Shown: positions 1,801-25,800 of the stretch, piece after piece | Numbering within the stretch: the stretch's first letter is position 1 | How the letters are laid out: every line of letters begins with the position of its first letter | Assembly (NCBI GenBank): GCA_016179925.1 | Contig: JACPCG010000183.1 | Coordinates: 1 to 36,005 of the forward strand | DNA: 36,005 nt | DNA from: Candidatus Rokuibacteriota bacterium | GTDB taxonomy: Bacteria; Methylomirabilota; Methylomirabilia; Rokubacteriales; CSP1-6 | Direction of reading: 5' to 3' | Translations under genes and position numbers: made by a program | The notes under the pieces: generated by a model | The model's database searches: none | Told to the model about the DNA's origin: nothing | Seen by the model: the letters and a program-made list of their open reading frames with translations, nothing else

Positions 1801-2382
1801 TCAGCGCATCGTGGAGAGATCGATCGTGAACCGGCTGACGTCACGGCCGTCGGCGTCGCGGACGACCAGCAGCACGCGCGACTTCCCCGTGAGATCCCGG
1901 ATCGGAAAGCCGTAGAGGCAACGCGCGAGGTAGCCGCCACGCTCCTGGCGCGCGGCGGTGCGCTCGTTCTGCACGAAGGCCGGCTCGATCTCGCGGTCGC
2001 GCAGGACCAGCCGGGGCGCGAGGAAGCGGGCGAAGTCCTCGCGCGGCCCGCGCAGCTCCGCCCAGACCAGCAGGCGGCCCTGCTGCTCGCGCAGCAGCCG
2101 GTCCGGCTCGTCGGGCTTCATCTTCTCGTTCCTGAACGCCGCGTGCCGCGCGGCGAGGACCAGCCGGTGGAAGGGCGTGATCACCGTCACGCTGTCGCCC
2201 GACGCGTTCGCCACGCGCCACTCGGCGTCGAACGTCTCGACGGTGACCGAGCGCCGGCCGACGCGGAGCGCGTCGGCCTGCTCGCTCTGCGTCAGGGCGA
2301 ACGAGGCGGCGGGCGCCGGGGCCGCCCACACGAGCAGCGCGGCCGCGAGGAGCGCCCGGACCGCCGGGCTGCCGGATGTCAC
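1801..2382 (-). CDS. Secreted protein of unknown function
   Basis: The GTG start at 2382 overlaps the TGA of the M16-like gene by four bases (GTGA), which fixes the start. The 193-residue product begins MTSGSPAVRALLAAALLVWA and ends its leader at APAPAAS, a clear Sec signal peptide. There is no lipobox cysteine, so it should be a soluble periplasmic protein. The mature part is mainly beta-strand-like (VTVETFDAEWRVANASGDSV, RLVLAARHAAF) and ends DVSRFTIDLSTMR; a lone cysteine occurs in ARCLYGFP. No family is recognised. Tight coupling to the M16 protein suggests it works in the periplasm with the peptidase/exporter set. Confidence 0.72.
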   Translation of the reverse strand: MTSGSPAVRALLAAALLVWAAPAPAASFALTQSEQADALRVGRRSVTVETFDAEWRVANASGDSVTVITPFHRLVLAARHAAFRNEKMKPDEPDRLLREQQGRLLVWAELRGPREDFARFLAPRLVLRDREIEPAFVQNERTAARQERGGYLARCLYGFPIRDLTGKSRVLLVVRDADGRDVSRFTIDLSTMR

Positions 2383-3674
2383 GGCGCCTTGCCGACCACG
2401 ACGCGGTTGAACGCGTCGGGGTCGAAGTACTTCGGCGCCACGCGCAGGACGTCCTGCGCCGTCACCCGCCCCACGCGCTCCTTGTACCGGTCGGCGTAGT
2501 CGAGCCCGAGCCCCAGCTCCTCGATGGCGCCGACGAAATCCGCGACCTTCCCGGAGGTGTCGAGGCGGAGCGGAAAGCTCCCGATCAGGTAGGACTTCGC
2601 GAGTGACAGCTCGGCGTCCGTCACGGGCGCGCGCGTCATGCGCAGGAGCTCCTCCCGGACGATCGCCTTGACCCGGGGGACCTCCGCCGTCCGCGTCTGG
2701 GCGCTCACGATGAACGCGGAGCCATACTTGGACGGCGAGACGTAGCTGTACACGGTGTAGGCGAGCCCGCCTTCCTCGCGCACGCGCGCGTAGAGGCGGG
2801 AGGCCGACCCGCCGCCCAGCACGTACGAGGCGACGACCAGCGGGAAGTAGTCGGGATTCGTCTGGCGGACCGCCTGGCGCCCGAGCATGATCGTGGACTG
2901 CGTCAGGTCCCGCGCGACCGCTTCCTCGCGCGGCGGCGGGCCCGGCGCAGCCTCGGGCACCCGCGCGGGCGCGCCCGCGGGCCGGGGCCACGCGCCGAAG
3001 CGCGCCAGGACCTCGCGGCGCGCCTCAGCGACCGTGACCGCGCCGACCACCGCGACGATCGCCGCGTCGGGCCGGACGTGCTCGCGGTGGAACTTGACGA
3101 CGTCGTCGCGCGTGAGCCGGGCCACGGACTCGCGCGTCCCCTCGACCGGCGTCCCGTACGGGTGGTTCGGGAACACGAGCCGCGCGAGCGCGCGCGCCGC
3201 GACCGTCGGCGGATCCTCGTCGGCGCGCTTGATCGAGGCCTGGATCTCGGCGAGCTTGCGCTGGACCTCGGCCTCGGGGAACGTCGGCGAGAGAACCACT
3301 TCGGACAGCAGGTCGAGGCCGAGCGCCAGGTCCTTCTTGAGCACCCGGAGGGAGGCGGCGAGGCTGTCGCGGCTCGCCCCGGCCTCGAGGCTCCCGCCCA
3401 CGAACTCGATCGCCGAGTCGAGCTCGGGTCCCGTGCGCTTCACGGTCCCCCGCGTGAGCAGGGCCCCGGTGAGATTCGCCAACCCGGCGCGGTCGTGCGG
3501 GTCCAACACCGCGCCCGCGCGGATCAGCACGCGCACGGCGACGATCGGCACCGCCGGCCGCTCGGCCACGAGGAGCACGATGCCGTTCGGCAGGACCTCG
3601 CGGTGCGCGAGCGGCGCCGCGGCGACCGGCGTCGCGCCCAGCAGAAACAGGAGGAGCACGATCGCCCAAACCAT
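2379..3674 (-). CDS. M16-family peptidase-like protein lacking the zinc site
   Basis: The chosen ATG at 3674 starts MVWAIVLLLFLLGATPVAAA, a signal peptide; the upstream in-frame extension is low-complexity sequence inside a palindrome. The 431-residue product has the two-domain M16 fold: VLPNGIVLLVAERPAVPIVA at the start, and a C-terminal half with GGGSASRLYARVREEGGLAY. Where active members have HxxEH this protein reads GLANLTGALLTRGT (residues 64-77), with Asn, Gly and Ala at the three ligand positions. Such members normally act as the non-catalytic half of a heterodimer that shapes the chamber and holds substrate. The likely active partner is the M16 protein at 7291-8598, at the other end of the same gene run. 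Confidence 0.9.
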   Translation of the reverse strand: MVWAIVLLLFLLGATPVAAAPLAHREVLPNGIVLLVAERPAVPIVAVRVLIRAGAVLDPHDRAGLANLTGALLTRGTVKRTGPELDSAIEFVGGSLEAGASRDSLAASLRVLKKDLALGLDLLSEVVLSPTFPEAEVQRKLAEIQASIKRADEDPPTVAARALARLVFPNHPYGTPVEGTRESVARLTRDDVVKFHREHVRPDAAIVAVVGAVTVAEARREVLARFGAWPRPAGAPARVPEAAPGPPPREEAVARDLTQSTIMLGRQAVRQTNPDYFPLVVASYVLGGGSASRLYARVREEGGLAYTVYSYVSPSKYGSAFIVSAQTRTAEVPRVKAIVREELLRMTRAPVTDAELSLAKSYLIGSFPLRLDTSGKVADFVGAIEELGLGLDYADRYKERVGRVTAQDVLRVAPKYFDPDAFNRVVVGKAP

Positions 3675-3684
3675 GGCGGTCCAG

Positions 3685-3893
3685 CCCGGACTATTCGTGA
3701 ACGAGGATACCGGGGTCGGACGGGTGGCGCGGCGGGCTGTGCCCGTGCGGCCGGCGCCGTGGGCCCCCCGAGTCCCGTCCGCAGCTCGGAGAGCTGCGCT
3801 CGGGCGCGTGGGTGACGGAGCTGGCCGCGCGGGCACAGCCCGCGGCGCTTCCCGTCCGCCTCGCGCGTGGTCGTTCATGAAGAGTCCAGGCTC
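3685..3893. repeat. 209-bp imperfect palindrome filling an intergenic gap
   Basis: The left arm (from 3685) and right arm (to 3893) are gapless imperfect reverse complements about the centre 3789. The middle is a perfect 7-bp stem (GCAGCTC / GAGCTGC, 3781-3797). Well-matched blocks include about 22 bases at the outer ends and about 35 bases around GGGCTGTGCCC (left) and GGGCACAGCCC (right). It starts 11 bases upstream of the M16-like ATG and ends within the permease TGA, so it fills the whole gap. No transposase, direct target repeat or credible small gene was seen. It could be a mobile palindromic element or a strong RNA hairpin within the operon. Confidence 0.8.
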
Positions 3894-5016
3894 AGTCTAG
3901 CTGCTTGCGGAATCTGAGAATCGACAACGTGAAGACGACCGCGCCGAAGACGACGAGCGGCAGCAGGTTGGGCCACAGATACTCGATGCCGATCCCCTTG
4001 AGCACGATGCCCCGCACCACCCGCAGATAGTACGTCAGCGGAATGACGTGCGCGAGGTACTGCGCGCCCAGCGGCATCCCCTCGATCGGGAACAGCAAGC
4101 CGGAGAGATAGATGGACGGCAGGAACGTCATGAACGAGAGCTGCATCGCCTGGGGCACCGTCCGCGAGGCGGCCGAGACGAAGATGCCGATGCCGAGGGT
4201 GCCCCACATGAACACCGCGGAGAGCCCGTACAGCAGCGGGAGGCTGCCGCGGATCGGCACGTCGAACACGAAGTGCGCGACGAGGAGCGCCATCGTCATC
4301 TGCCCGTACGCCACGAGCAGGTTCGGGATGATCTTGCCGAGCAGCAGCTCCCAGCGCCGGATCGGGCTCACGATGAGCGCCTCGAGCGTTCCCCGTTCCC
4401 GCTCGCGGACGATCGCGATCGCCATCACGCTGACCGTCGTCTGCATCAGCAGGGCGCCGATCAGGCCCGGGACGATGAAGACCGCGGACACGAGATCGGG
4501 GTTGTACCAGGCGCGCACCCGGAAGTCGAGCGGCGGCGCGTCCTTCTTGAGCACGACGCCCTCGGTCGTCTGGGCCAGCAGCTGGAGCGAGCGGTCGGCG
4601 GCCAGCGAGGAGGCCGCGTTCATCGCCGAGGTGGCCACCATCGGGTCGGAGGCGTCCACGATCACCTGCACCTGGGCCCGGCCGCGCACGAGCTGGCGAG
4701 CGTAGTCGGGCGGGATCACGACGCCGACCTTGGCCGTCCCGTCGTCGATCATGCGCGTGAGCTCCCGCGTGCTCCGCGCCCAGTGGCGGACGTCGAAGTA
4801 CTGGCTGTTCTCGAGCGCCTCGAGGAGCGTCCGCGCCTCGACGCTCCCCGACTGCTCGAAGACGGCCGTCGGCACGTGCTTGACGTCGGTGTTGATCGCC
4901 CAGCCGAAGATGAAGAGCATCGCGACCGGCACGAAGAGCATGAGCGTCAACGCCAGGCGGTCGCGCCAGAGCTGGAGAAACTCCTTGGCGATGATCCCGT
5001 GGAGCCGGCTGCCCAC
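3892..5016 (-). CDS. ABC-2 type transporter permease
   Basis: This 374-residue inner-membrane protein begins at a GTG at 5016, five bases after the ATPase stop begins, with GAGG upstream. Its architecture is that of YhhJ/YbhS/YbhR-type permeases: one N-terminal membrane helix (LALTLMLFVPVAMLFIFGWA), a large extracytoplasmic loop of about 150 residues, and five more helices in the C-terminal half. The cytoplasmic RERERGTLEALIVSPIRRWELLLGK coupling segment is typical of the ABC2_membrane_3 family. With the adjacent ATPase and HlyD adaptor it should form an efflux or export system. Only one permease gene is present, so the channel is presumably a homodimer. Confidence 0.92.
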   Translation of the reverse strand: MGSRLHGIIAKEFLQLWRDRLALTLMLFVPVAMLFIFGWAINTDVKHVPTAVFEQSGSVEARTLLEALENSQYFDVRHWARSTRELTRMIDDGTAKVGVVIPPDYARQLVRGRAQVQVIVDASDPMVATSAMNAASSLAADRSLQLLAQTTEGVVLKKDAPPLDFRVRAWYNPDLVSAVFIVPGLIGALLMQTTVSVMAIAIVRERERGTLEALIVSPIRRWELLLGKIIPNLLVAYGQMTMALLVAHFVFDVPIRGSLPLLYGLSAVFMWGTLGIGIFVSAASRTVPQAMQLSFMTFLPSIYLSGLLFPIEGMPLGAQYLAHVIPLTYYLRVVRGIVLKGIGIEYLWPNLLPLVVFGAVVFTLSILRFRKQLD

Positions 5017-5020
5017 GGCC

Positions 5021-6043
5021 TCAGCGCTCCGCGGCGCCGAGCGCCCGGAGCTGCTCGCGCACCCGCGACTTCCGCTCGCGGTCCACGAACGAGACGAACA
5101 GGTCCTCGACGCTGGGCTCGACCTCGCCGACCCAGTCCAGGGCCACGCCGCGCGCGGCGAGGAACTCCCGGACGGCGGCGACATCGGGCCCGCCCGGCGC
5201 GAGGATGAGCCGCACGCGGGCGCCGGCGCGCACGACCTCCTCGACCGCGTCCCAGTCGGCGAGCGCGGCGCTGGCGGCGCGCGGGTCCTCGGCGGCGAGC
5301 TCGATCACCGGCCGGGCGAAGGTCTCCGCCTTGATCCGCGCCGGAGAGCCGTGGGCGATCAGCTTCCCCTGGTAGATGAAGCCGAGCGTGTCGCAGAGCT
5401 CGGCCTCATCCATGTAGTGGGTCGTCACCACGATCGTCGTGCCCTCGTCGGCGAGGTGCCGGACGAGCGCCCAAAACGTGCGGCGCGAGACCGGATCGAC
5501 CCCCGCGGTCGGCTCGTCGAGGAAGAGCAGCCGCGGCCCGTGGACCAGCGCGCACGTAAGCGCGAGCCGCTGGCGGTAGCCGCCCGACAGCTGGCCGGCG
5601 AGCTGGCGCTCCCGCCCGCCGAGGTCGCCGAGGCGCAGCATCCGCTGGATGCGCGGCGCGCGCTCGGCGCGCGGGACCATGTAGACGCGCGCGTAGAAGG
5701 TGAGGTTCTCCTCCACCGTGAGGTCGTCGTAGAGCGAGAACCGCTGCGACATGTAGCCGATGACCGACTTCACGCGCTCGGGGTCGCGGCGGAGGTCGAT
5801 GTCGAGCACGCGCCCCTGCCCGTCGGTCGGTTCGAGGATGCCGCACAGCATGCGGAGCGTGGTGGACTTGCCCGCGCCGTTCGGGCCGAGGAAGCCGTAC
5901 AGCTCGCCGCGGCGGACGTGGAGGTCGAGGTGGTCGACGGCGACGACCTTGCCGAAGCGCTTCGTGAGCCCGCGCGTGACGACCGCGTCCTGATCGTCCG
6001 TCACGGTCACCGCGGGGGTGCGGGGGATGCCTGCCTCGACCAC
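5021..6043 (-). CDS. ABC transporter ATP-binding protein (export type)
   Basis: The 340-residue protein carries Walker A GPNGAGKST (residues 53-61), a Q-loop in YMSQRFSLYDDLTVEENL, the signature LSGGYRQRLAL, Walker B LLFLDEPTAGVDP and the switch histidine in VVTTHYMDEAE. The C-terminal hundred residues form the extra domain seen in drug- and polysaccharide-export ATPases (YbhF/CcmA-like). It energises the permease encoded just downstream. The start is uncertain: the GTG at 6043 lies inside the spacer of an inverted repeat whose left arm encodes residues 3-13, while GTG codons at 6010 or 6004 would give a protein starting just before the conserved domain. Confidence 0.93.
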   Translation of the reverse strand: MVEAGIPRTPAVTVTDDQDAVVTRGLTKRFGKVVAVDHLDLHVRRGELYGFLGPNGAGKSTTLRMLCGILEPTDGQGRVLDIDLRRDPERVKSVIGYMSQRFSLYDDLTVEENLTFYARVYMVPRAERAPRIQRMLRLGDLGGRERQLAGQLSGGYRQRLALTCALVHGPRLLFLDEPTAGVDPVSRRTFWALVRHLADEGTTIVVTTHYMDEAELCDTLGFIYQGKLIAHGSPARIKAETFARPVIELAAEDPRAASAALADWDAVEEVVRAGARVRLILAPGGPDVAAVREFLAARGVALDWVGEVEPSVEDLFVSFVDRERKSRVREQLRALGAAER

Positions 6044-7290: not shown

Positions 7291-8598
7291 TCAGGGCTTG
7301 GGCAGCAGGACGCCGACGTTCTTCCGGTCGTCGGGGAACCACGCGCGGGCGACGCGCTGGAGGTCGGCGGCGGTGACGGCGCGGATCTTCGCGAGGAACG
7401 CGTCTTTCAGTCCGTGGCCGCCGAGCAGCTCGAAGCGTGCCAGCAGCGCGGCACGCCGGTGGATGGAGTCCTCCTGGAAGACGAACGTCGCCTCGATCTG
7501 GTTCTTCGCGCGCTGCAGCTCCTCCTCGGTGACCGGCTCTTTCCTGAGCCGCTCCATCTGGGCGAGCAGCTCCTGCTCCAGCGTCTCGGGCGTCTGGCCG
7601 GGCATCGCCGTCGCCCAGAACCAGAAGAGGTTCGGATCGAGCGAGAAATACGAGTAGTCGCCGCCCGCCTCGAGGGCGAGCTGGCGCTCGTAGACGAGTT
7701 GCTTGTAGAGCCGCGAGGCGCGGCCTCCCGACAGGACCGTGGACAGCACCTCGAGCGCCGCGGCGTCCTCCGCGCGGTGGTTGGGCACGTGCCAGGCCAG
7801 GTAGACGATCGGCAGCTCGGCCTGCTTCCGCACGATCACGCGCCGCTCGCCGTTCTGCGGCGGCTCGACGGCGAGCACGGCGGGCGGCTCCGGCCCGCGC
7901 GGGATCCGGCCGAACCGCCGCTTGATCCGCTCGAGCGCGTCCTCGGCGCGGAACGCGCCGACGGCGACGACGATCGCGTTGTTGGGAACGTAGTAGGCCC
8001 GGTAGAAGGCGCGGATCTCGTCCGGCGTGAGCCGCTTGAGGTCCTCCATCCAGCCGATGATGGGGTAGCCGTACGGGTGGGCCTTGAACGCGATCGAGCT
8101 GACCTCCTCGCCGAGGAACCCGCTCGGATCGTCCTCGGTGCGCGTGCGCCGCTCCTCGATGACCACCTGCCGCTCGGAGTCGATGTCCTTCGGCTCGAGG
8201 AGCAGGTTCTGCATCCGGTCGGCCTCCAGCTCGACGACGAGGTCGAGCTTGTCCGCGGCGATGTTGACGAAGTACGAGGTGACGTCCTGCGAGGTGAACG
8301 CGTTGTCCTGGCCGCCGTTCTGCTCGACGATCCGCGCGAACTGGCGCGGGCCGTAGGTCGGCGTGCCCTTGAACATCATGTGCTCGATGAGGTGCGCGAT
8401 GCCCGTGGCGCCGCGCTGCTCGTTGCGCGAGCCGACCCGGTACCACACCTGGAACGACACGATCGGGCTCCGGGGGTCCTCCAGCAGGAGCACGCGGAGG
8501 CCATTCAGGAGCGTGGCGGTAAGGACGCCATCGGCCGCGTGCGCCGCCGCGGGGGCGAGCAACGCCACGGCCAGGAGGACGACGAGCGCTCTGCTCAC
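7291..8598 (-). CDS. M16-family zinc metallopeptidase, catalytic
   Basis: The GTG at 8598 gives a 435-residue protein beginning MSRALVVLLAVALLAPAAAH, a signal peptide, followed by the mature sequence LLNGLRVLLLEDPRSPIVSF. The inverted zinc motif HLIEH is at residues 69-73 (His69, Glu72, His73), in GATGIAHLIEHMMFKGTPTY, and the distal glutamate lies in the VVIEERR helix. The C-terminal M16 half has GGRASRLYKQLVYERQLALE. Family members degrade or mature peptides in a closed chamber and usually need a partner subunit; the zinc-less M16 protein at 2379-3674 is the obvious candidate. First gene of the run, with a -10 box only seven bases upstream of the GTG. Confidence 0.95.
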   Translation of the reverse strand: MSRALVVLLAVALLAPAAAHAADGVLTATLLNGLRVLLLEDPRSPIVSFQVWYRVGSRNEQRGATGIAHLIEHMMFKGTPTYGPRQFARIVEQNGGQDNAFTSQDVTSYFVNIAADKLDLVVELEADRMQNLLLEPKDIDSERQVVIEERRTRTEDDPSGFLGEEVSSIAFKAHPYGYPIIGWMEDLKRLTPDEIRAFYRAYYVPNNAIVVAVGAFRAEDALERIKRRFGRIPRGPEPPAVLAVEPPQNGERRVIVRKQAELPIVYLAWHVPNHRAEDAAALEVLSTVLSGGRASRLYKQLVYERQLALEAGGDYSYFSLDPNLFWFWATAMPGQTPETLEQELLAQMERLRKEPVTEEELQRAKNQIEATFVFQEDSIHRRAALLARFELLGGHGLKDAFLAKIRAVTAADLQRVARAWFPDDRKNVGVLLPKP

Positions 8599-8605
8599 TG
8601 TTTCG

Positions 8606-8611
8606 ATTATA
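8606..8611 (-). promoter_or_regulatory. Consensus -10 box giving a probable leaderless transcript
   Basis: TATAAT on the minus strand (8611 to 8606) stands seven bases before the GTG at 8598. Transcription would begin at or next to the start codon, and no Shine-Dalgarno sequence precedes it. The -35 region is weak: TTGTCG is spaced only 14 bases away. Confidence 0.6.
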
Positions 8612-8813
8612 ACGCGCCGTGCCCACGACAAGGACGGCGCCCGCCGCCGCGATGCTCGTGAAAAACGCGGGCGTCGTCCCATCGAGCTCATCGTCGTCGC
8701 GGGCATGCTCGCCACGGCTGTGAGATCATCTGCGGAGGGCGCGCCCCGCCGGGCGCTGGAGGCCGAGGGCCCCACGAAGACCATTCGCCGCTGAGAAGGC
8801 GAGGGAACGCACC

Positions 8814-19561: not shown

Positions 19562-19670
19562 TCAGCCGGGCATAATGCCCGGCTGATGACACTTTTGGCG
19601 ACAGAGTGACTTATTTTGGCCCAGGTCCTGGGCACCTGGGTCGGCGGGCCTGCGCCAGGCCCCGCCCGCC
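19562..19670. other. Cluster of three hairpins downstream of the malic enzyme gene
   Basis: Bases 19562-19586 are a perfect 12-bp palindrome around one base (TCAGCCGGGCAT / ATGCCCGGCTGA). Bases 19620-19640 form a 7-bp stem (CCCAGGT / ACCTGGG), and about 19643-19670 a GC-rich stem (GGCGGGCCTG side). None has a T-run on either strand. They may act as Rho-independent-like pause sites or RNA 3'-end stabilisers for the malic enzyme transcript. Confidence 0.5.
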
Positions 19671-19701
19671 ACACGCGACGACCGCTCGTGAATAATGCGC
19701 G

Positions 19702-21138
19702 CTAGCGCGGGGCCTTGGCGCTCGCCGTGCGCGGCCGCCGGCGCGCCACGCCGGCGCGGATCGCCGCCTCGGCGACGGCGGCGGAGACGGCGGGCACGAC
19801 GCGGCCGTCGAACATCGAGGGCGTGATGTACTCCTCGGAGAGCTCCTCCTTCGACACGATGGACGCCAGCGCGTGGGCCGCGGCGAGCTTCATCTCGTCG
19901 TTCACCCGGCGGGCCCGCACGTCGAGCATGCCGCGGAAGAAGCCCGGGAAGCAGCACGAGTTGTTGATCTGGTTCGGGTAGTCCGAGCGGCCCGTCGCCA
20001 TGACCCGCACGTAGGGGCCCGCCTCCTCCGGCTGGATCTCCGGGATCGGGTTCGCCATCGCGAAGACGATCGGGTCGCGGTTCATGGCCTTGATGTCCTT
20101 GAGCGACACGACACCGGGCCCCGAGAGCCCGATGAACACGTCGGCGCCCTTCAGCGCCTCGCCGACCGTGCCTTTGATCAGCTTCTCGTTCGTGTGCTTG
20201 GCGAACCACTCCTTCATCGGATTCATGTTGTCCGTGCGCCCCCGGTAGAGGGTGCCCGCGCGGTCGCAGCCGATGATGTGCTTGGCGCCCGCCTTCATGA
20301 GCAGCTTCGCGGTCGCGATGCCCGCGGCGCCGGCGCCGCAGAACACGATCCGCATGTCGCTGAGGCGTTTCTTCACGATCTTCAGCGCGTTCAGGAGGGC
20401 GGCCAGCACGACGACGGCCGTGCCGTGCTGGTCGTCGTGGAAGACCGGGATCTCGAGGTCGCGCTGGAGCCGCTGCTCGATGTCGAAGCAGCGGGGCGCG
20501 GAGATGTCCTCGAGATTGATTCCGCCGAAGACCGGAGAGATCGCCTTCACGATCGAAACGATCTCATCCACGTCCTTGGTCGCGAGGCACACCGGGAAGG
20601 CGTCCACGCCCGCGAACTCCTTGAAGATGAGCGCCTTGCCCTCCATGACCGGCTGGGCCGCGCTCGGGCCGATGTCGCCGAGGCCGAGCACCGCCGTGCC
20701 GTCCGTCACGACCGCGACGCAGTTCTGCTTGATCGTCAGCGCGTACGCCTTCTCCGGGTCGTGATGGATCGCCATGCAGACGCGCGCCACGCCCGGCGTG
20801 TACGCCATGGAGAGGTCGTCGCGCGTCTTGACACTCATCTTGCCTCGCACCTCGATCTTCCCGCCGAGGTGCATGAGGAACGTGCGGTCGGAGACATTCA
20901 CGACCTTGACGCCCTGAACGGCGCGGATCTTGTCGACGACCTGCTGGCCGTGCCGCTCGTCGCGCGCCTTGAAGGTGAGGTCGCGGGTGATCGTGGACTT
21001 GCCGACCTGGACGAGGTCGATCGCGCCGATATCGCCGCCCGCCTTGCCGATCGCGGAGGTCACCCGCCCGAGCATCCCGGGCCGGTTCTGGATCTCGAGC
21101 CGTACCGTCATGCTGTAACTCGCGCTTGGGGCCTGCAT
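19702..21138 (-). CDS. NAD(P)-dependent malic enzyme with N-terminal ACT domain
   Basis: The 478-residue enzyme oxidatively decarboxylates malate to pyruvate. The malic domain starts at MSVKTRDDLSMAYTPGVARV; key segments are AVVTDGTAVLGLGDIG, PVMEGKALIFKEFAGVDAFP, the metal site PVFHDDQHGTAVV and the dinucleotide fold MRIVFCGAGAAGIATAKLLM. Residues about 8-85 (YSMTVRLEIQNRPGMLGRVT ... VKVVNVSDRTFLMH) are an ACT domain, probably sensing an amino acid, which is an addition to the usual bacterial enzyme of about 400 residues. ATG at 21138 is preceded by GGAGGAG. The last 20 residues form a basic Arg/Ala-rich tail. It diverges from the DUF169 gene. Confidence 0.95.
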   Translation of the reverse strand: MQAPSASYSMTVRLEIQNRPGMLGRVTSAIGKAGGDIGAIDLVQVGKSTITRDLTFKARDERHGQQVVDKIRAVQGVKVVNVSDRTFLMHLGGKIEVRGKMSVKTRDDLSMAYTPGVARVCMAIHHDPEKAYALTIKQNCVAVVTDGTAVLGLGDIGPSAAQPVMEGKALIFKEFAGVDAFPVCLATKDVDEIVSIVKAISPVFGGINLEDISAPRCFDIEQRLQRDLEIPVFHDDQHGTAVVVLAALLNALKIVKKRLSDMRIVFCGAGAAGIATAKLLMKAGAKHIIGCDRAGTLYRGRTDNMNPMKEWFAKHTNEKLIKGTVGEALKGADVFIGLSGPGVVSLKDIKAMNRDPIVFAMANPIPEIQPEEAGPYVRVMATGRSDYPNQINNSCCFPGFFRGMLDVRARRVNDEMKLAAAHALASIVSKEELSEEYITPSMFDGRVVPAVSAAVAEAAIRAGVARRRPRTASAKAPR

Positions 21139-24447: not shown

Positions 24448-25800
24448 CTAGCGGAACTCCTCGGCCCTGATGCTGTACGCGAGGATCTTCCGATAGAGCG
24501 TCTTCGGGTCGATCGCGAGGAGCGCGGCGGCCTTGCCCCGGTGGCCGCCGACCTGGCGCAGGGTTGCGACGATGTGCGCGCGCTCCATGGCCTCCAGGCT
24601 CCCGCCGGATGTCGCCGCGGGCGACGCCGGCGCGCCGCGGACCTCCGGCGGGAGGTCGTCGGGCAGGATCTCGTCGCCCTGCGAGAGGATCACGGCGCGC
24701 TCGATCACGTGGAGCAACTCGCGCACGTTGCCCGGCCAGTCGTACGCCTCGAGCGCCGCGACGGTCCGGGGGTGCAGGCGCCTCACGCCGTAGGTCGCGT
24801 TGGCCGTCACGAAGTGGTTGGCCAGGAGCGCGATGTCCTCGCGCCGCTGGCGGAGCGGCGGCAGCTTCAGCGCGATCGTGTTGATGCGGTAGTAGAGGTC
24901 CTGGCGGAACTCGCCCGTCTTCATCGCCTCGGCGAGGTCGCGGTTCGTCGCCACGACGAGCCGCACATCCACCCGCCGGGGCCGCGTGCCGCCGACGCGG
25001 AAGAAGGTGCCGGTCTCGAGCGCGCGGAGGAGCTTCACCTGGCTATCCGGCTCCATCTCGCCGATCTCGTCGAGGAAGAGCGTCCCGCCGTCGGCGAGCT
25101 CGACCAGCCCCGGCTTCGCGCTCACCGCGCCGGTGAACGCGCCCTTCTCGTGGCCGTACAGCTCCGACTCGAAGACCTCGCGCGGCAGCGCCCCGCAGTG
25201 GATCGGGACGAACGGGCGCTGGGCCCGCGCCGAGCGCTCGTGGATCACGCGGGCGACCAGCTCCTTGCCCGTGCCGCTCTCGCCGAGGATCAGCACCGCC
25301 GAATCGGTGGGGGCGACCCGCTCGACGATCCGCAGCACCTCCTGCATCTCGGGGCTGCGCGTGACGATGCCGCCGAACGGCTCGGCCCCGGGCGCGTGCG
25401 CGCGCAGCGCCTCGTTGTCGCGGAGGAGCTGGGCCTTCTCCGCGGCCTTGCGGATGACGATGTCGAGCTCCTCGATCTTCGTGGGCTTGGTGAGGTAGTC
25501 GTAGGCGCCCAGCTTCATCGCCTCGACGGCGGTGGAGACCTCCTGGAAGCCCGTCATGACGATCACCTGCGGCTGCTCGGGGAACTCCTGGAGCTCGCGC
25601 AGGACCTCGATCCCCTCCTTCTTCGGCATCTTCATGTCGAGGACCACGACATCGTACAGCGTCTCCGCCATCCGCTCGAGCGCCGCGGCGCCGTCCTCGA
25701 CGCCGTCCACCTCGTGGCCTTTGCGCGCGAGCTCGCGGACCACGAGCTCGCGGAGGTTCCGCTCGTCGTCGGCGACGAGGACCCGGATCTTCCGGCTCAC
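24448..25800 (-). CDS. NtrC-family sigma-54-dependent response regulator
   Basis: This 450-residue regulator has a receiver (VLVADDERNL, phospho-acceptor Asp in VVVLDMKMPKKEG, Lys in YLTKPTK), an AAA+ domain with Walker A GESGTGKE, the sigma-54 contact loop GAFTGA, Walker B GGTLFLDEIGE and arginine-finger region QDLYYRIN, and a C-terminal Fis-type helix-turn-helix (GGHRGKAAALLAIDPKTLYR). It should activate RpoN promoters after phosphorylation. The GTG start overlaps the kinase stop (GTGA), so it is the cognate partner of the multi-GAF kinase. A perfect -24/-12 promoter 106 bases beyond its stop is a likely target. Confidence 0.96.
   Translation of the reverse strand: MSRKIRVLVADDERNLRELVVRELARKGHEVDGVEDGAAALERMAETLYDVVVLDMKMPKKEGIEVLRELQEFPEQPQVIVMTGFQEVSTAVEAMKLGAYDYLTKPTKIEELDIVIRKAAEKAQLLRDNEALRAHAPGAEPFGGIVTRSPEMQEVLRIVERVAPTDSAVLILGESGTGKELVARVIHERSARAQRPFVPIHCGALPREVFESELYGHEKGAFTGAVSAKPGLVELADGGTLFLDEIGEMEPDSQVKLLRALETGTFFRVGGTRPRRVDVRLVVATNRDLAEAMKTGEFRQDLYYRINTIALKLPPLRQRREDIALLANHFVTANATYGVRRLHPRTVAALEAYDWPGNVRELLHVIERAVILSQGDEILPDDLPPEVRGAPASPAATSGGSLEAMERAHIVATLRQVGGHRGKAAALLAIDPKTLYRKILAYSIRAEEFR

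Follow-up and report, generated by a model that had tools for sequence, protein, structure and literature searches.

The 209-bp palindrome between an ABC-2 permease gene and an M16-family gene in the window, by which we mean the entire 36,005-nt stretch of Rokuibacteriota DNA under analysis, is best explained as a MITE with IS1380-family ends that was most likely mobilised in the past by an IS1380-type transposase acting in trans, a reading to which we assign a probability of roughly 0.87. The element body (positions 3685–3890) is a short, transposase-less segment of 206 bp, within the range of roughly 30–300 bp typical of MITEs. It shares its terminal inverted repeats (TIRs) with an autonomous IS, occurs in multiple dispersed copies, and is missing from the orthologous site in relatives. 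The preliminary description had offered three explanations for the palindrome, namely a non-autonomous mobile element, a recombination site, and an RNA structure controlling the M16 gene. The first is supported by the dispersed copies, the IS-type terminal repeats, the 4-bp flanks that point to target duplication at family level, and the empty sites in relatives; nothing was found in support of the second, and the third is weighed below. A striking operon structure is thereby explained as an ordinary, if unreported, mobile element, which guards against wrongly assigning it a role in M16 regulation.

The palindrome is near-complete, imperfect, and real. Its 78-nt arms (3683–3760 and 3815–3892) are 78% complementary, the best ungapped register pairs 70 of 105 positions compared with 39–42 in registers three to four positions off, and the reported perfect stem is present at the centre as 8 bp closed by a 3-nt loop (3780–3787 and 3791–3798). 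Folded as minus-strand RNA, the sequence reaches −156.2 kcal/mol against −102.6 ± 4.7 kcal/mol for shuffled versions (z = −11.3), and none of 200 shuffles folds as well. The TIRs read CCCGGACTATTCGTGAACG on the left (3685–3703, plus strand) and CCTGGACTCTTCATGAACG on the right (3872–3890, as read on the minus strand). They are bordered by the 4-bp flanks CCAG (3681–3684), a degenerate target duplication where the family consensus is CTAG, and CTCA (3891–3894), which overlaps the permease stop codon. Both neighbouring genes lie on the minus strand: the upstream permease gene (3892–5184, PF12698) ends with TGA at 3892–3894, matching the claim that the palindrome extends to this stop, and the downstream M16 gene (2379–3674, PF05193/PF00675) begins with the ATG at 3674, leaving a gap of 217 nt of which the element makes up 206. 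The M16 product had been called zinc-less, and it indeed contains no HxxEH motif; the operon’s second M16 protein (7291–8784) has one. An inward-facing ATG lies in the TIR, and in the window copy the in-frame ATG at 3878 also opens the M16 frame on the minus strand, which crosses the element from 3878 to 3674 and enters M16 without coding for a transposase. Decay of the exit CTAG to CTGG has kept this frame open. A protein fusion starting at ATG 3878 is considered unlikely, since M16 has its own start at 3674, followed by a signal-peptide-like sequence.

Palindromes of this length had been described as rare, and a search of the own and related genomes had been proposed. The own genome, a metagenome assembly of 3.57 Mb in 223 contigs that is 81% complete, gives 24 matches to the 209-bp stretch, including the stretch itself and its reverse complement, and 11 of 40 relatives also contain matches; with dozens of related copies in the genome, the palindrome is not rare. 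The copies have a common end, CTAGCC(C/T)GGA(C/T)TATTCATGAACG, which at up to three mismatches is found at 42 places in the own genome and is present in 14 of the 40 relatives, compared with no occurrence of a control pattern (reversed but not complemented) in any of these genomes. Pairing of ends produced 46 rows of 58–261 bp including flanks. Three of these (overlapping alternatives, nested or tandem) were removed before flanks and neighbours were counted, leaving 43 paired short elements, 26 of them in the own genome. Core types differ among the copies, and very short copies consist of the two ends and little else. The longer own-genome matches are 67–79% identical, so these copies are old and no recent transposition is seen. 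A second core type (233–261 bp), which has a conserved GCGGCTGGGCTCCATCC-like loop, occurs with the same ends at eight loci of the own genome, G000 (L017, L019, L025, L079, L084, L085, L089, and L093). The window itself holds a truncated family copy on the minus strand (19650–19705), in which a single end remains with its TIR (19683–19701) and CTAG (19702–19705) and the rest is missing. One further copy, L008 (G000, contig C190, element 1495–1711), is embedded in a longer inverted duplication of its flank, which spans about 47 bp on each side with two mismatches and takes in the start of the neighbouring gene; either fold-back at the palindrome or an error of assembly may have produced it.

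The same ends also bound full-length elements. In one relative (G018), two ends lie 1692 bp apart including flanks and delimit a complete IS of 1684 bp whose product is a 469-residue IS1380 family transposase (362 bits with NF033539, for which the cut-off is 180; PF13701, E = 2e-126). IS1380 transposases score above the cut-off in 10 of the 40 relatives, and among the 12 loci concerned, seven have at least one such end at up to six mismatches, including four with both, and five are without these ends; the end-sequence control gave no matches in 66,880 shuffled bases. The only assembled end of the IS1380 copy in Ca. Rokuibacteriota AR22 (relative G008, contig QHSV01000403.1; L192 and L047 are identical over 2,972 bases), a member of the same GTDB family as the window genome, matches the left end of the window element over all 19 element bases. 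Among the matches listed in genome_contigs, the end is found in Rokubacteria, Methylomirabilota/NC10, Nitrospira, Planctomycetota, Gammaproteobacteria, Acidobacteria, Myxococcales, Eisenbacteria, and others, and 72 of the 113 loci examined have a second end within 310 bp. All five IS-sized end pairs among the matches listed (1691–1716 bp), which come from Rokubacteria, Planctomycetes, and Acidobacteria, encode IS1380 transposases of 45–80% identity; three of the five were also scored with NF033539 and exceed the cut-off. Short element and IS have only the TIR in common, the element core being unrelated to the IS. Neither an IS1380 transposase nor, with it, a partner in the same genome was matched in the own 81%-complete assembly, and 10 of the 12 element-rich genomes examined, the own genome included, lack the transposase; these are incomplete MAGs. 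We infer that mobilisation occurred in trans. An ancient partner may since have been lost or, as a multi-copy IS, may have escaped assembly in the MAGs, and either would account for the missing transposase.

The flanking sequences were compared to define the target. CTAG is present on both sides of 22 of the 43 short elements and, as it is its own reverse complement, most copies cannot distinguish direct from inverted duplication. Direct agreement exceeds inverted agreement at L089 (GTAG/GTAG), L084 (TCAA/TCAG), and L020 (TTCG/TTAG), and the full-length IS in L116 is flanked by TTAG/TTAG, which only a direct duplication explains. The reverse holds for L008 and the window copy, whose flanks CCAG/CTCA form no clean duplication (two of four positions agree when inverted, one of four when direct), and the other non-CTAG copies tie. 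The IS1380 family is usually listed with duplications of 4–5 bp. An origin from an IS630/Tc1-like element with a TA target, first considered because of the CTAG flanks, was rejected, as IS1380 transposase genes lie in the full-length elements with these ends and flanks of 4 bp are the better fit. At the insertion site itself, six of the seven relatives that retain the permease–M16 junction have a short gap with no insert. The seventh (G005, locus L266, contig C18) carries an unrelated gene there, an open frame of about 670 bp with no palindrome.

These data also bear on two other accounts of how the palindrome arose. A different enzyme, such as a REP-associated Y1 transposase or an as yet unidentified DDE enzyme, might have moved the element, with the likeness to IS1380 ends due to coincidence or common descent. 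The scarcity of IS1380 transposases in element-rich genomes is in its favour, as is the published description of REP-like palindromes located at stop codons, together with RAYT genes flanked by TIRs (PMC3733652). However, Y1_Tnp (PF01797) is likewise missing from G000, G014, and G025, every IS-sized TIR pair among the matches listed codes for an IS1380 transposase, and IS and short element agree in TIR, CTAG target, and duplication length, which together make another enzyme improbable. Classification as a REP/RAYT element was discarded for its part, since the element is about 206 bp long against a unit of 20–40 bp and PF01797 is absent from G000. A fold-back artefact of assembly or library preparation could be suspected in a metagenome assembly of 223 contigs, the more so as the inverted duplication around L008 may be such an artefact. 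The flanks of the window copy show no inverted duplication (10 of 30 positions), however, and independent, diverged copies with identical ends occur in many contigs and genomes, so that we regard this explanation as extremely remote.

The long-hairpin fold is maintained among copies. Fifteen of them (12 from the own genome and three from G014; alignment A1, from which L021 was left out for an internal deletion) fit one long stem in which 94.4% of cells are paired, and 24 of its 73 pairs have changed on both sides, compared with 15.1 ± 2.0 in shuffled alignments, none of 500 of which scored as high. Such covariation raises the prospect that the palindrome is a domesticated MITE kept as a functional RNA hairpin on the operon, serving as a terminator, RNase III site, or mRNA stabiliser, and the location of the copies between co-directional genes (22 of the 24 own-genome copies with both neighbours called) could be read in the same way. 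Homogenisation of the arms in a palindrome can also yield covariation, however: gene conversion or template switching between arms could maintain the fold without selection on the RNA. Furthermore, no terminator-like site was found in the element; a single 5-pair candidate lies inside the M16 gene and was rejected. Rfam covariance models gave no match at E ≤ 1 for positions 3600–3950 and returned two tRNAs only on 15 loci with related elements. A dedicated RNA structure controlling M16 is not supported, given the presence of the same element next to many unrelated genes and its absence from this junction in six relatives.

The behaviour of the target sequence on its own also argues against a retained operon function. 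A stop codon lies 0–1 nt from the element in 19 of the 26 own-genome copies (neighbours were called with a simple codon-usage gene caller, and the two copies not counted above had one neighbour called). CTAG without an element is rare, with 28 sites in about 124 kb. Six of these were too near a contig end and were left out; the 22 testable sites comprise 11 at native stops, six otherwise intergenic, and five intragenic, and 16 of the 17 non-intragenic sites lie between co-directional genes. Since element-free sites show the same location bias, target choice and tolerance suffice to explain the distribution and no regulatory role is needed. A preference for operons as such was rejected on the same grounds: the element lies between co-directional genes because its CTAG target is mostly at stop codons. 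We therefore consider a functional hairpin unlikely, if somewhat less so than mobilisation by another enzyme, and a side effect of the element on operon mRNA possible.

The preferred reading, a MITE mobilised by an IS1380-type transposase, suggests the following course of events. The transposase, acting in trans, would have excised such transposase-less segments by their 19-bp terminal repeats and inserted them at CTAG-like tetranucleotides with a 4-bp duplication. In this GC-rich genome CTAG is rare and mostly part of (C)TAG stop codons, hence the position of copies directly behind stops, in tight gaps between co-directional genes, where they would be tolerated. In the window, the target would have been the region around the permease stop, a short way upstream of where M16 begins, and the transcript of each copy is predicted to form a long hairpin in the operon mRNA. 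CTAG targeting alone would be enough to place hairpin MITEs within operons, behind stop codons.

In other phyla, the elements that bear these ends belong to many core clusters, one of which is common to Gammaproteobacteria, Nitrospira, and Acidobacteria. A model of this core (R1), derived from 11 cores after removal of the ends, matches over its full length in Eisenbacteria (E = 8e-11), additional Nitrospira, and others. Copy numbers reach at least 133 in a gammaproteobacterial genome (Co_bin.113) and at least 46 in a member of the Lysobacterales, with at least 18, 16, 13, 7, 6, and 2 in further genomes and none in G048. Both ends, at up to six mismatches, are present at 24 of 30 fetched R1 places, two of the other six having been checked at a wrong offset. 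In the Rokubacterial family the scores are only borderline (L016, E = 0.0098 and 0.028; L015, 0.11). The R1 search did not find the window copy, and the own genome, like G048, yielded nothing at E ≤ 0.01. The search at E ≤ 1 also lists chance-level places, among them window positions 25401–25537 and a part of L019 outside its element.

In 32 model-aligned rows, 33 of 39 pairs have changed on both sides against a shuffle mean of 26.8, with 304 double-change cells against 104 in shuffled alignments and 27–57 when partners are slid, in an alignment (A5) that was fitted to the model structure and so favours pair counts, in which copies within a genome are not independent and one row (L292, plus strand) repeats, read from the opposite strand, a place that another row covers. 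Several unpaired core positions are fixed. Mean conservation is close in unpaired and paired columns (0.69 and 0.66), so the argument from loops rests on particular motifs, namely near-fixed asymmetric internal loops with GCGAG opposite GCAGNAG and AGGCGTA..TACGTCGA. The GCGAG/GCMGYMG motif, defined after the data had been viewed, occurs in 28 of 106 elements against a shuffle mean of 0.35 and is not fitted by the remaining 78, the window copy included. As an observation in its own right, the loci L284–L313 in genomes G040–G047 (Gammaproteobacteria, Nitrospira, Acidobacteria, and Eisenbacteria) represent high-copy IS1380-ended hairpins with a covarying asymmetric core that is not in Rfam; the 183-bp gammaproteobacterial element had no counterpart in the plasmid collection.

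In many uncultured phyla, hairpin MITEs are found with IS1380-type ends. We tentatively suggest, as a minority view of these data, that such ends carry a trans-phylum hairpin class whose core is a selected structured RNA (or an extruded DNA hairpin) instead of inert filler, with the window element as a distant relative. So far, only the ends, a loosely similar sub-terminal motif, and the borderline scores of sister copies would tie the window element to this class. If the suggestion is right, a host or element protein could bind the core RNAs, promoting spread or taming insertions in operon mRNA. The strongly covarying core, common to hairpin elements of several phyla, offers a testable route to a structured RNA or DNA family, so far undescribed, travelling on transposon ends.

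A literature search combining MITE, CTAG, and nonautonomous with IS1380, and using the end sequence, found no description of the family, and no paper that connects MITEs with IS1380, in the openly accessible literature; among the papers listed, nothing relevant was found on repeats in Rokubacteria or Methylomirabilis. Comparable MITEs and REPs derived from other transposons are covered by PMC11578231, PMC4133298, PMC3281130, PMC3542288, PMC10969869, and PMC3733652. The IS1380 family IS (NF033539) shares terminal repeats and target type with the element, which differs in having no transposase gene and an unrelated core, and the complete relatives, at 1684–1689 bp, agree with the family in length; the family member IS1247 is given in Table 2 of PMC3281130 as 1672 bp with IR 16/13 and DR of 5 bp. 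Bacterial MITEs with IS-matching ends (PMC10969869; PMC11578231) resemble the element in being short and transposase-less, in having IS-family TIRs and direct repeats, in forming one long hairpin transcript, and in being mostly intergenic; MITEPye1 has IS1182 ends (PMC11578231), whereas those of the window element are IS1380. Tn3-ended elements are similarly non-autonomous, with lengths of 200–300 bp, conserved short core stretches, and predicted stable hairpin transcripts, but they generate 5- or 6-bp duplications at AT-rich targets, in contrast to the IS1380 ends and 4-bp CTAG-like duplications of the window family. REP/BIME palindromes with a GTAG or CGTC tag (PMC3733652) are also palindromic, dispersed, and located near stops between co-directional genes, where they sometimes supply a TAG stop; REPs are 20–40 bp long without TIRs or target duplications, whereas the element has about 206 bp and IS1380 TIRs and resides in a genome without a Y1 transposase.
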